Below are positions 53,017 through 57,902 of a stretch of 64,000 bases of DNA, piece by piece (the stretch's first letter is position 1; each line of letters starts with the position of its first letter). The position numbers were made by a program, and so were the translations under genes. The stretch lies in NCBI GenBank assembly GCA_021156365.1, contig JAJNDK010000002.1:558001-622000 (forward strand). Direction: 5' to 3'. The stretch comes from Bacteroidota bacterium. Its GTDB lineage: Bacteria > Bacteroidota > Bacteroidia > B-17B0 > Aurantibacillaceae. Under the pieces are notes generated by a model that was given only the letters and a program-made list of their open reading frames with translations, was not told the DNA's origin and searched no databases.

Positions 53017-53055
53017 AAAATTTGAGACGGAATCCTGAACTCCGTCTCAAATTTT
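53017..53055. terminator. Bidirectional terminator between DUF4349 and MbnP genes
   Basis: A perfect 15-bp stem (53017-53031 with 53041-53055) has a 9-base loop and A/T-rich ends on both sides, so it ends transcription from both directions. It touches the stop codon of the MbnP gene. Confidence 0.93.
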
Positions 53056-53849
53056 TAATGAGAGATCTCCGTAACAGAGAACATATCTGCGTAGTTGTCG
53101 GCGATCATTTTTGAGGTCGCATTTACCATCGTAACATTGTTGGTGGTTGTCAGGTCGATTGCGTTTGGAGTTTTGAACCACTCTGTGAGGTCATTTTTTA
53201 AACGTATAGTAGTTGTGTGTGTTTCGGATACATGGGCAGACACTCCGTTAAAAGAAGGCTGCGCCGTTCGCAGAGCAGAATTAGGGCCCTGGAAGCCACC
53301 GATGTGGATAGCAAACGTATTGAAAGGAGCATAATTAGACGTGCCTTCCACCTTGGCCATTATATAGCCGGTACTCCAGGTCCAGAACATTCCTTTTCCC
53401 GGATCCAGGTCGCCGCTTTGTATCCCCGATACATTTCGTGCAGAATCCACACCGATCATAAACCGGATACCGGTATAATTTCCTTCGGGTACATTGGAGA
53501 TACTGATAGACCTGGATGACACAGTGTCTTGATCCACCAGGTGATAGCTCTCCGGCTCTGAATACCAGGTACCATTGGCACGTAGTAATTTGACGTTGCT
53601 GATATAATATTTATAAGCTCCCACTCCGATCTTGTCTCCATTCTCAAGCAGGTACAATACAGTGTCCAGGAACAACTCATTGGTGTCTACCATATTTGTG
53701 ATCTCCAGCTTCACCGTTCCGTAGCTTGTAGTATCATGTGTATGATTTCCGTGATGGGAATGGTCTTCGGGCACTTCCATCTTATCATCCTTTTTGCAGG
53801 ATGGGAACACAAGAAAAACAACCAGGATCGCTGTTAGAAATACTTTCAT
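53055..53849 (-). CDS. MbnP-family lipoprotein with His-rich linker (copy B)
   Basis: A 264-residue lipoprotein with a lipobox (VFPSCKK). Residues 26-36 form a His-rich stretch (DHSHHGNHTHD) before the domain. The MbnP-type beta-sandwich contains ITNMVDTNELFLDT, YYISNVKL, SYHLVDQD, FMIGVDSARN, GMFWTWSTGYIMAKVEG and FAIHIGGFQG. In characterised MbnP a Trp is converted by the di-heme enzyme MbnH to kynurenine, which with His ligands binds copper; the tryptophans and a His are kept here. It is last in a five-gene minus-strand cluster that includes an MbnH gene. Confidence 0.85.
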   Translation of the reverse strand: MKVFLTAILVVFLVFPSCKKDDKMEVPEDHSHHGNHTHDTTSYGTVKLEITNMVDTNELFLDTVLYLLENGDKIGVGAYKYYISNVKLLRANGTWYSEPESYHLVDQDTVSSRSISISNVPEGNYTGIRFMIGVDSARNVSGIQSGDLDPGKGMFWTWSTGYIMAKVEGTSNYAPFNTFAIHIGGFQGPNSALRTAQPSFNGVSAHVSETHTTTIRLKNDLTEWFKTPNAIDLTTTNNVTMVNATSKMIADNYADMFSVTEISH

Positions 53850-53894
53850 CGTCCAATTTAATTTCCATAAAGATACAGCAAAAGAAGCTTATTT

Positions 53895-54902
53895 TCAAGG
53901 GTGCTCCGCTGCCGCCTCTTTTCTTCCCAGGAGGTACTTTTTCTGGTTGAAATTATAGGTGAGCCCAACGATAATCCGTCCTGCATTTTTCAGATCATTA
54001 TCCGCTACCTTTTCATAGGCCCGGAACTGCATCGCCATATTCAGCGAGATGTTTTTGTAGAACAGGTCGAAGCCCGGACCGGCCAACAGGCAATTCATAC
54101 CAGTTGCTTGCTGTATGGACCTATTAATATAAAGTCCTTTGCAGTATTCGTAATAAAACTGGGCGGAAGGGATCAGGATAAAGTTCCCTGTTTTTGCTTT
54201 ATAAAAAATATTCAGGTAGTTACTGGTGCTGTTCCCGATCTGCTCTTTATAATAATTGCGGCCATTGATCTTGTACATACAATTCAGGCTGAAGCCGAAC
54301 TTTTTATATCCGAACACATAATTTGCATAGGAAAATACATCCACGCTCCCGGTACCGGGCTGCATCAATAAGGGCAGACGCTCACCATCTTCATCCTTTG
54401 CATAATAATTTCCGGACGGGATCTTTACTCCTCCTCCAACGATCAGGCGGTGCAGGAACTTTTCATAATCCACCTTTTTGATAAGATGATAGCCTGCAAA
54501 AAAAGTGGGGTCGCCCAGACCGGTATGGCTCAATACAACTGTATCTTCCTTGCTTTTATTCGTATTAACAGGAATAATGGCATTGAGCTCGATCCGCTTG
54601 TGAATAAAGTATTTTGCCCGCAGCTCATACGCTTTATAGGATTCGTAATCTTTGCTCGAATACTTTTTGGTTTGTACCACCGGGCTGACCGGTGCACCGC
54701 CATGCATTTCGCGGTAAGCCCCGGATGGGAAAAAATTGCTTTTCTGATCATACATCCGGTATCCGTTAAAGATCCTGTAGCGGTGTACGAAACCAATGGC
54801 GCTTTGGTTGTCATATGGAGTAATGCCCATAAAACATCCGCATATATCACAAGACACAGCTTGCATGCTGATGCATACGAACAGCATAATAAAATATCTC
54901 AT
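53895..54902 (-). CDS. Predicted outer-membrane barrel with CxxCxC start
   Basis: A 335-residue exported protein. After the signal peptide (MLFVCISMQAVS) the mature N-terminus is CDICGCFMGITPYDN, a CxxCxC motif that may bind copper or form disulfides. The rest consists of alternating strands with aromatic girdle residues, such as GVKIPSGNYYAKD and MAMQFRAYEKVADNDLKNAGRIIVGLTYNF, so it is likely an outer-membrane beta-barrel. The first Cys could also be lipidated. It sits between MbnP copy B and a small lipoprotein gene, so a metal-related role is inferred. Confidence 0.7.
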   Translation of the reverse strand: MRYFIMLFVCISMQAVSCDICGCFMGITPYDNQSAIGFVHRYRIFNGYRMYDQKSNFFPSGAYREMHGGAPVSPVVQTKKYSSKDYESYKAYELRAKYFIHKRIELNAIIPVNTNKSKEDTVVLSHTGLGDPTFFAGYHLIKKVDYEKFLHRLIVGGGVKIPSGNYYAKDEDGERLPLLMQPGTGSVDVFSYANYVFGYKKFGFSLNCMYKINGRNYYKEQIGNSTSNYLNIFYKAKTGNFILIPSAQFYYEYCKGLYINRSIQQATGMNCLLAGPGFDLFYKNISLNMAMQFRAYEKVADNDLKNAGRIIVGLTYNFNQKKYLLGRKEAAAEHP

Positions 54903-54936
54903 AAAAAATTTAAATTAGTTCTGCCTTCAGTGGAAA

Positions 54937-55311
54937 TTAATCCCCTTCCGTTACAGGGATATCAAGTGTTACGACTTCTTTTGACCGAACCTTTGTAGGT
55001 ACACCGCCCACTACTTCATAGGGTGGTGGAATGGAAGGGTCCTCACCTACGGCATACAGATAATACTCTCCTTTGTAGATCTCCGGGATCTCGTAATACC
55101 CGCCAATATCTGCTTTAAAGCTTTTGTCATATACAGACACATCGCTGCCCGGAAAGTCCTGCGCATCGAATTTGATGTAAACAGTGGCATTGCTGATCGC
55201 TTTACCATGGTGAGCAACTTTTCCTTTTATACTGGATTTGCCCCCCAGCCGGTTTTTTTTACAGGCTGTAAAGGCAAGCACAAGTAAAAGGCAATAAAAA
55301 ACGTTTTTCAT
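54937..55311 (-). CDS. Small lipoprotein with carboxypeptidase-regulatory-like fold
   Basis: A 124-residue protein from the ATG at 55311; the frame is open further upstream. A signal peptide ends in a lipobox (LAFTACKK), followed by a single beta-sandwich domain: SIKGKVAHHGKAISNATVYIKF and GGYYEIPEIYKGEYYLYAVGED, the pattern of CarboxypepD_reg/Cna-B domains. The role is likely structural, as a tether or contact domain. It lies 19 bases after the MbnH gene and 34 bases before the barrel gene, so it is part of the same transcript. Confidence 0.75.
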   Translation of the reverse strand: MKNVFYCLLLVLAFTACKKNRLGGKSSIKGKVAHHGKAISNATVYIKFDAQDFPGSDVSVYDKSFKADIGGYYEIPEIYKGEYYLYAVGEDPSIPPPYEVVGGVPTKVRSKEVVTLDIPVTEGD

Positions 55312-55330
55312 TTGAATGATTTTAAAATGA

Positions 55331-56377
55331 TTAATTCGGATCCTTAAACCGGGTGTCGTATACAAATGCGTAATCGGTAAGCGTATTCAAAAATGCTTTC
55401 AGTTCCGTTCGTTCCTGTGCGCTGAGCTGTATCCCGCTTTGCAGCTGCGGATCCAGTGTTGGACCCTGTACGACACCTGAAGCATAATGGTTCAGTACCT
55501 GGTCGATGGTATTGAACCGGCCATCGTGCATATAAGGCGCAGTAAGCATGATGTTGCGCAAGGTTGGCGTTTTGAATTTATAACGATCGTTCGGATCGGC
55601 AGTTACATGCGCTCTTCCTGAATCCTGCAAATTTATGTTCACTGCTATCCCGTTATTCCTGAACGCATAATCCGTAAACAAAGGCTCTGTATGGCAGCTG
55701 GCACATTTTTGCTGATACAACTGATACCCTGCCATCTCCTGCGCATCCATATTCCCGCCCTGCTCTCCGCGTTTGTACAGATCGTACTTACTGTTGTAAG
55801 AATACATCATCCCCATGAACTGAGCCAATGATTTGAACATCCGTTCTGTCGTCACCTCTTCATCTCCATATGCATTTTTGAACAGGAGCTTGTATTTTCC
55901 GTCCGCATTCAGCTTTGCGAGCACATTGTTCATGTCCTCATTCATCTCTACCGGATTGGTGATGGGTGCAAGCGGTTGTACTTCGATATGATTGACACCA
56001 CCATCCCACATAAAAGATGTATTCCAGTTCAGGTTGAACAGACCGGGTGAATTCCTTATGCCGAACGAGCCGTTGATCCCATGGCTAAGTGCATGCTCTG
56101 AATGTGCAAAAGCTACAAAATTCTGATGACAGGATCCACAGGAGATCGTATTGTCTGCAGAAAGTTTTTCTTCGTAAAACAACTCCCTGCCCAGCTTGAA
56201 TTTCTCAACGGACAAAGGATTGTTCTCAAATTTATAAACCGGTTGAGGCCAGCCAGCCGGCACCACCTGCTCAATATTATCGGCAGGTAGCACCGGCTTG
56301 ATGGCAGGATCCACGCTACAGGAAGAAATCCCGGCAGCTATTGTGATCACAAGACCTATGTTCAGGACAAAACGCAT
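55331..56377 (-). CDS. MbnH-like di-heme cytochrome c peroxidase family protein
   Basis: A 348-residue exported protein with a lipobox-like AAGISSC. Two CxxCH heme c sites, CGSCHQNFVAF (about residue 79) and CASCHTEPLFTD (about 226), fit the di-heme peroxidase/MauG superfamily that includes MbnH. MbnH oxidises a Trp of MbnP to kynurenine through a bis-ferryl state. FKTPTLRNIMLTAPYMHDGRFNTI near the C-terminus carries the conserved Met/His region. Its start is 2 bases after the MbnP copy A stop, so the two are tightly coupled. The enzyme-substrate pairing is inferred from adjacency. Confidence 0.85.
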   Translation of the reverse strand: MRFVLNIGLVITIAAGISSCSVDPAIKPVLPADNIEQVVPAGWPQPVYKFENNPLSVEKFKLGRELFYEEKLSADNTISCGSCHQNFVAFAHSEHALSHGINGSFGIRNSPGLFNLNWNTSFMWDGGVNHIEVQPLAPITNPVEMNEDMNNVLAKLNADGKYKLLFKNAYGDEEVTTERMFKSLAQFMGMMYSYNSKYDLYKRGEQGGNMDAQEMAGYQLYQQKCASCHTEPLFTDYAFRNNGIAVNINLQDSGRAHVTADPNDRYKFKTPTLRNIMLTAPYMHDGRFNTIDQVLNHYASGVVQGPTLDPQLQSGIQLSAQERTELKAFLNTLTDYAFVYDTRFKDPN

Positions 56378-56379
56378 TC

Positions 56380-57159
56380 TTAGTTGTGTATATGCTCCAC
56401 ACTGAACATATCAGCATAATTATCTGCAATGGATTTGGCTGCAGCGCCTCCCATGTGTATCGTGTGGGTAGTTGCAAAGCTAACAGTTGTCGGTGATTTA
56501 AACCACTCCGCAATATCTGCTTTCAGGTGTATCTCTGGTGTTACCGTACTGCTTACATTTGCCATGGATCCGTTGAAAGAAGGAGTTAGGGTCTTCAACA
56601 CACTGTTGGTTCCCGAAAAGCCTCCCATGTGCAACACCAGTCCATGATTAGTGGCAGGTGAAGAAGGTGAATTCCCTTCGAGTTTTGCCATGATATAGCC
56701 ACTGCTCCAGCTCCAGAACATTCCTTTGGCAGGATCCAGCGCACCTGATTGTGCCCCTGAAACATTGCGTGTCGAATCTACTCCGATCATAAAGCTGATG
56801 GCTGTATAATTACCAAAAGGCACACCTGAAAGTGTCAGGACTTTTGATGATGTCACATCTTCATCGATCAGGTGGTAACTTTCACTCTCCGTGAAAATAG
56901 TTCCGTCCGATTTGGTAAGCTTGATATTGCTGATGTAATATTTGAATTTGGAAACGGTGAAGCTGTCATTGTTGGCATTCACATATGTTTCGGAGTTTAA
57001 TACCAGCTCATTGGTATCCACCATGTTCTCAAATTCGATCTTCAACGATCCCGTCGTTGCGGCTGGTGGTGTCGGTGTTGCTGGTTCGTCAACCGGATCC
57101 TTTTTACAGGATGCGATCACGACCGCCACGATAACTATTAATAAAAATGTTTTTTTCAT
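56380..57159 (-). CDS. MbnP-family lipoprotein (copy A)
   Basis: A 259-residue lipoprotein (lipobox VVIASCKK) with the same fold and motifs as copy B: FENMVDTNELVLNS, YYISNIKL, SYHLIDED, SFMIGVDSTRN, GMFWSWSSGYIMAKLEG and LVLHMGGFSG. It differs in the N-terminal linker, which is Pro/Thr-rich (DEPATPTPPAATT) and has no His cluster. The Trp candidates for kynurenine formation and the His of HMGGF are present. It is directly followed by the MbnH gene, the expected partner. No -7 element could be placed confidently upstream. Confidence 0.88.
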   Translation of the reverse strand: MKKTFLLIVIVAVVIASCKKDPVDEPATPTPPAATTGSLKIEFENMVDTNELVLNSETYVNANNDSFTVSKFKYYISNIKLTKSDGTIFTESESYHLIDEDVTSSKVLTLSGVPFGNYTAISFMIGVDSTRNVSGAQSGALDPAKGMFWSWSSGYIMAKLEGNSPSSPATNHGLVLHMGGFSGTNSVLKTLTPSFNGSMANVSSTVTPEIHLKADIAEWFKSPTTVSFATTHTIHMGGAAAKSIADNYADMFSVEHIHN

Positions 57160-57418
57160 ATTCGTTTTAATAAAATTAAGTTCTACTTACGGGCACTACT
57201 AAAACACCTGTATACTGAGAAGAACTCAATACCGGCATTTTAAACGTACTACTCTTTTGGGATAAGATGTTTGAATAAATATCCTTACAGCTCCTTTTAT
57301 CTTTCTGTACGGGCTATTTTAAAAGAGTATTACACCCTTTCCTGTTGCTTCCGGAATACATAAAGATACTACATTCCCATTTCAAAAGGAATGAATTTAA
57401 CATAAGAAAACAGTAAGT

Positions 57419-57793
57419 TCAGGTCAATTGGTCGGGTGGATGGAAAACACTCCCGGATAAGGAATAGTCGTAATTATTCCCATAGATAAATACGGGAGCA
57501 GTGGTGATTTCTTCAAAATGCTGTTCCTCTTTTTCGGGGATAGTGCAGGTGAGTAAATTAAATTTATCCTTCAGGCCGGGAGGAAGTCCTTTGTTCTCCT
57601 TTTTATCTTCTTCCTGTAATTGTTTATTCAACTGGCAGGAGCCTTTACAGCAGGATTTCGGTTTTTTACGGTTTACACACAGGTTCTTAGCGATATACTC
57701 CCGGTTTGCTCTGAAATTAATGAGAATGGCGAGCTTGGCCGTACTTTGGAACAGGATCCCGGTCAAAATCGCTATGGCAATACATACCCTCAT
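57419..57793 (-). CDS. Small exported Cys-rich protein
   Basis: About 124 residues from the ATG at 57793. The frame also opens at an upstream TTG at 57805, but the -7 element overlaps it, so the ATG is preferred. A hydrophobic N-terminal helix (VCIAIAILTGILF) is followed by NLCVNRKKPKSCCKGSCQL, a C...CCxGxC cluster, and an acidic linker. The family is unrecognised, although similar small proteins occur beside copper genes in Bacteroidota. It lies 259 bases upstream of MbnP copy A; that gap holds no gene. Confidence 0.6.
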   Translation of the reverse strand: MRVCIAIAILTGILFQSTAKLAILINFRANREYIAKNLCVNRKKPKSCCKGSCQLNKQLQEEDKKENKGLPPGLKDKFNLLTCTIPEKEEQHFEEITTAPVFIYGNNYDYSLSGSVFHPPDQLT

Positions 57794-57845: not shown

Positions 57846-57882
57846 TAAAAAAACAAGGCCTGACTTTTTGAAGCCAGGCCTT
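57846..57882 (-). terminator. Terminator of the ExbB-ExbD-ExbD-TonB operon
   Basis: On the minus strand AAGGCCTG pairs with CAGGCCTT around a 12-base loop, followed by GTTTTTTT. It lies about 20 bases after the tonB stop and separates the TonB operon from the Cys-rich gene. Confidence 0.85.
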
Positions 57883-57902
57883 AAATCTATGAGTAAAACT
57901 GA

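Follow-up and report, generated by a model that had tools for sequence, protein, structure and literature searches.

A conserved gene cassette around MbnP-like and MbnH-like genes in Bacteroidota, with a predicted outer-membrane channel and a Cys-rich mini-protein

Manesis and colleagues are said to have found in 2021 that the first Trp of the WxW motif of the MbnP protein is converted to kynurenine, and that a His and a Met lie near the Cu(I). The pair formed by MbnP and the di-haem enzyme MbnH is conserved far outside methanobactin producers (PMC3621798), and exported copper proteins with kynurenine, CorA and MopE, occur in gamma-proteobacterial methanotrophs (PMC3912023, PMC3423442), CorA being paired with a di-haem peroxidase, CorB, as the MbnP described below is with a di-haem enzyme. 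Here we analyse a 64,000-nt stretch of a Bacteroidota genome (contig JAJNDK010000002.1), called hereafter the window, in which a minus-strand cassette (57793-53055) associates two MbnP-like lipoproteins (MbnP-1 and MbnP-2) and an MbnH-like enzyme with a small exported Cys-rich protein (CYS), a small lipoprotein (SLP) and a predicted outer-membrane beta-barrel channel (BRL). To our knowledge, a channel and a Cys-rich partner of MbnP-MbnH are undescribed, and we know of no barrel or CYS partner for CorA/CorB or MopE. No paper dealing with Bacteroidota MbnPs turned up in a literature search, though its coverage omitted the main MbnP/MbnH papers. The cassette is probably a real, conserved but undescribed system built round the known MbnP-MbnH pair. 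We favour, with a probability of about 45%, the reading that it is a self-contained envelope metal-handling unit, most likely for Cu(I), with a core made of CYS, MbnP and a channel bearing a CDxC tail, to which MbnH is usually added.

The usual gene order, CYS-MbnP-(MbnH)-BRL, was found repeatedly across the phylum. Of the 87 genomes in the taxonomic order of the window, which all belong to one family, about 26 had a strong barrel match, in nearly all of them adjacent to MbnP. A scan of named genomes of Hymenobacteraceae revealed the cassette in 46 loci (Hymenobacter, Solirubrum, Adhaeribacter), Hymenobacter and Adhaeribacter being among the cultured genera that carry it. Among 20 distant barrel loci sampled across the phylum, MbnP and MbnH were adjacent in 18 (including L124, counted by coordinates, where the barrel directly follows MbnH), and CYS and the barrel stood alone in two. 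Overall, MbnP adjoined 83 of the 88 barrels examined, in about 12 families, and about 80 cassettes had a CYS homologue in the corresponding place. Such a recurrence of one gene order, in many families, goes far beyond chance, and since the flanks are mostly unrelated, lineage-specific housekeeping genes, the cassette itself is the conserved unit. An initial reading of the window, made from its letters alone (the sequence-only reading), had grouped the barrel with MbnP and MbnH, which this recurrence bears out, and had proposed a search for the same order in other Bacteroidota, where it was indeed found, in Hymenobacteraceae, in the window's family and in distant families. The exact gene set, for which that reading knew of no described system, is not a singleton, the core being a phylum-wide cassette.

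Both MbnP-1 (56380..57159; this and all other genes of the cassette are on the minus strand) and MbnP-2 (53055..53849) match the Pfam MbnP family PF20243, with 198.6 bits (E 1e-58) and 184.6 bits (E 2e-54), respectively, for a cut-off of 27. With the MbnP equivalog model TIGR04052 they scored 47.9 and 41.7 bits, under the cut-off of 140, and the MbnH-like enzyme scored 230.7 bits with the MbnH equivalog model TIGR04039, under a cut-off of 362.85 that was passed in no genome searched; by that test, the MbnPs and MbnH are relatives, not equivalogs. A profile search of the PDB with the MbnP alignment gave no match, and a fold comparison was needed instead. The AlphaFold model of MbnP-1 (predicted local distance difference test score, pLDDT, 86) matched solely 7L6G, the Methylosinus MbnP, all six chains of which were retrieved at about 1e-8 to 1e-7 with a template modelling (TM) score of about 0.5; the next match, unrelated, had an E value of 0.1. 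In an alignment of 19 diverse MbnP relatives, both window MbnPs included, W149, W151, H177 and M251 were invariant. The W149-x-W151 motif, H177 and M251 fit the known Cu(I) site of MbnP, and we infer that they are equivalent to the ligands of 7L6G. In addition, the C-terminus of MbnP-1 reads HIH.

The MbnH-like di-haem lipoprotein (55331..56377) matches CCP_MauG (PF03150, E 1e-52), and its best PDB match is 6E1C, a di-haem enzyme which we take to be the Methylosinus MbnH. Its two CxxCH haem sites, at residues 80 and 225, are kept in 90/90 and 89/90 of the aligned MbnH rows, and Tyr298 in 89/89. This Tyr aligns with a Tyr of 6E1C and with a Met of the bacterial peroxidase 3O5C, which supports its assignment, by alignment, as the MauG/MbnH-type axial Tyr that replaces the peroxidase Met. 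The enzyme belongs to the same superfamily as MauG and the bacterial di-haem cytochrome c peroxidases, with an axial-type Tyr as in MauG, but its substrate would be MbnP, and not methylamine dehydrogenase or peroxide alone. Pfam matches, fold and conserved residues all support the initial identification of MbnP-family proteins with a partner of MbnH/MauG type. Compared with the Methylosinus trichosporium MbnP/MbnH pair (7L6G, 6E1C), the locus has the same MbnP fold, the same W-x-W, His and Met, and an adjacent MauG-like di-haem gene. In contrast, it has no methanobactin genes (none of mbnA/B/C, for biosynthesis and transport, was present among the genes read on both sides of the cassette), it adds a channel and CYS, its MbnH is optional, and its proteins score under the TIGR04039 and TIGR04052 cut-offs. 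Two further observations concern such enzymes. In a clade of 17 MbnHs from the window's family (L024, L026-L029, L031-L034, L040-L043, L045-L048), the Trp of the MWDG motif (Trp124 in the window) is replaced by His, which may alter inter-haem electron transfer, and in many Hymenobacter cassettes (L068-L112) the barrel is followed downstream by another di-haem enzyme, MbnH-like but distinct from the first.

The barrel gene BRL (53895..54902) encodes a protein with a Phenol_MetA_deg match (E 2.5e-6, 28.2 bits versus a cut-off of 22). Its AlphaFold model (predicted TM score 0.74) has about 13 long strands, an approximate count for a family fold that is 12-stranded. The best fold match was the COG4313 outer-membrane channel 4RL8 (TM 0.75, E 1e-8), and the second was FapF, with 11-16% identity to these two proteins. 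From this model, BRL is predicted to be a COG4313/FapF-like outer-membrane channel, which agrees with the pore first suggested. Unlike 4RL8 and FapF, however, the barrel family of the cassette has a specific N-terminal tail and a linkage to MbnP. The tail, which is probably periplasmic, contains CDICGC in the window and CDxC (twice CExC) in 84/84 intact barrels, before the first strand. The third Cys is found in 62/84, so that the CxxCxC noted initially claims too much for the family, the third Cys not being invariant. Lipidation was rejected as a general role of the first Cys, the motif being located 40-57 residues from the start in some members.

CYS (57419..57793), the first gene of the cassette, encodes a small exported protein with a C-x9-CC-x-G-x-C motif and a C-terminal FHPP, in which C43, C53, C57, P123 and P124 are invariant; no Pfam family matched it. 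Extra copies of CYS were found beside SCO1 (L143, L145), next to CobW, NicO and MbnP genes (L153) and beside a TonB receptor gene (L155). CYS may represent a more general family of metal-linked mini-proteins without a Pfam entry.

In the mechanism that we propose, MbnH would oxidise the first Trp of the MbnP WxW motif to kynurenine, as in Methylosinus MbnP, and this kynurenine, together with the invariant His and Met, would form a Cu(I) site. MbnP would then exchange its metal with Cys residues located in the channel tail and in CYS, and the channel would let the metal or some small complex through the outer membrane, for uptake or export. The conserved cassette gives MbnP-MbnH, outside methanobactin producers, concrete partners in the form of a specific channel and a Cys-rich mini-protein.

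Inspection of the WxW motif revealed that it is kept in 70/70 MbnPs beside MbnH, and that losses are found only where MbnH is absent. At the sequence level, this pattern fits a role of WxW as the MbnH substrate. In a Hymenobacter clade of MbnH-less cassettes, WxM replaces WxW; some of these genomes are without another MbnP, and all retain a second, different MbnH-like enzyme. In the window's family, MbnH-less cassettes keep WxW, and at least 7 of 11 such genomes carry another MbnP-MbnH pair, which could act in trans. The MbnH-less WxM cassettes are natural controls for the need of Trp oxidation. A broader proposal would make of the cassette a phylum-wide outer-membrane Cu(I) system, in which kynurenine-bearing MbnP would deliver to the channel CDxC, CYS would be a chaperone or sensor, and WxM would be an alternative, unmodified site in the MbnH-less lineages; we regard it as tentative and on balance rather unlikely.

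Several observations weigh against the favoured metal-handling reading. About 26 cassettes consist of CYS-MbnP-BRL without an adjacent MbnH. The sequence-only reading had named as evidence against itself homologues that lack a copper response and occur without MbnH; these cassettes correspond to the second half of that statement. The sign test of WxW loss versus MbnH loss cannot reach 0.05, as the branches are few and non-independent, and the first Trp, which may be structural, is kept even in the WxM forms. A small number of barrels are solitary or accompanied by CYS alone, and most cassettes are flanked by housekeeping genes. Finally, a P-ATPase gene of Zn/Cd type is located near the L128 cassette (it was considered as a copper P-ATPase, and rejected on its scores), and CobW and NicO genes lie beside the extra CYS-MbnP pair of L153.

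These last neighbours, and the fact that Cys/His-rich parts are not metal-specific, favour the alternative that survives best, namely that the metal is another one (Zn, Ni/Co, or several), MbnP being a general envelope metal-binding fold of which copper is only the Methylosinus case. We consider this unlikely. SCO1 genes occur close to the L115 and L128 cassettes, as well as beside the two CYS copies mentioned above, in several families, and the His, Met and Trp that are invariant in MbnP match a Cu(I) site. Moreover, a plasmid of Deinococcus radiodurans (NZ_OV024759.1) carries an operon composed of a small His/Cys protein, MbnP, a di-haem enzyme, a hypothetical protein, CopC and CopD. This operon resembles the cassette in its succession of a small Cys/His-rich protein gene, MbnP and a di-haem enzyme gene, but has CopC/CopD in the barrel's place. 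Copper is therefore our best guess for the metal, from the MbnP/MbnH chemistry, the SCO1 neighbours and the Deinococcus CopC/CopD operon. The copper system imagined from the letters alone is plausible in that context, whereas the Zn and Ni neighbours count against its exclusivity.

Somewhat less probable again is that the barrel does not conduct metal, and is a FapF-like secretion pore taking MbnP or CYS to the surface for scavenging. FapF is its second-best fold match, MbnP and the barrel remain paired even without MbnH, and the distantly analogous CorA is associated with the cell surface (PMC3912023). However, the COG4313 channel is a better fold match than FapF, and the conserved CDxC suggests a metal or redox contact. 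In addition, the start of the lipoprotein MbnP is of CKKD type, and Bacteroidota have other surface-export routes for such lipoproteins. It is improbable that MbnH is an ordinary peroxidase, with MbnP as its electron donor or partner, in a cassette devoted to peroxide defence: the enzyme does belong to the CCP_MauG family, and a Fe/Mn superoxide dismutase gene adjoins the L128 cassette, but the invariant Tyr298 replaces the peroxidase Met, WxW, His and Met are conserved in MbnP, and many cassettes are without MbnH. An ordinary MbnP-MbnH pair sharing an operon with unrelated neighbours by chance, as might be thought from the many pairs without a barrel (the second pair of the window genome included), is most improbable and already contradicted by CYS and the barrel flanking MbnP in constant order in about 12 families, in mostly different surroundings.

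The second MbnP of the window is a local addition to the cassette. MbnP-2 keeps the WxW, His and Met, is without the C-terminal HIH, and has an N-terminal His-rich stretch, HSHHGNHTH. It groups with an MbnP of a sister species (L035) which adjoins its own MbnH, without a barrel. Other close MbnP doublets were seen only in L039, where the extra MbnP lost WxW, and in L110, which has tandem cassettes. The combination of one MbnH with two MbnPs, put forward in the sequence-only reading, is nearly unique to the window genome and not supported as a general feature. Within the mechanism proposed above, MbnP-2 would be a supplementary metal protein that probably shares the MbnH of MbnP-1, and modification of both by a single enzyme would be plausible. 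The window genome has a second MbnP-MbnH pair (L003, G000:C3:50851-54414), with overlapping genes and without barrel or CYS, the MbnP of which is devoid of the CKK lipobox present in other MbnPs.

The positions and strand of the six genes were confirmed as first given, as were the gaps of 2-45 bases in the five-gene operon: from MbnP-1 to MbnP-2, the intergenic gaps are 2, 19, 34 and 45 bases; upstream, 259 bases separate CYS from MbnP-1. The remaining gene, SLP (54937..55311), encodes a small lipoprotein with possibly a carboxypeptidase-regulatory-like fold; its Pfam match is weak and under cut-off (E 0.03-0.04), which does not sustain the regulatory fold assigned to it initially. SLP has 20 homologues, all after MbnH and restricted to the window's own family.

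On the upstream side, a 13-bp intrinsic terminator (57854..57883, minus strand) separates the cassette from tonB/exbD/exbB. These three genes were rejected as members of the system, because of this terminator and because other cassettes do not share them as neighbours. At 57810-57803, just 5' of the start of CYS, the sequence TAACTTTG is similar to the -7 promoter element of Bacteroidota (TAnnTTTG), and no -33 element stood out clearly. On the other side, direct reading of the sequence revealed a 15-bp hairpin with T-rich flanks (53017..53055), a probable terminator between MbnP-2 and a convergent DUF4349 gene.

Some barrels were found outside of cassettes. Two lone barrels (L010:7869-8879 and L015:5047-6063) are located at a chromosomal site that holds the whole cassette in the related L009 and L012, and an orphan barrel on a Hymenobacter plasmid (L134, NZ_CP053910.1) adjoins a recombinase gene.
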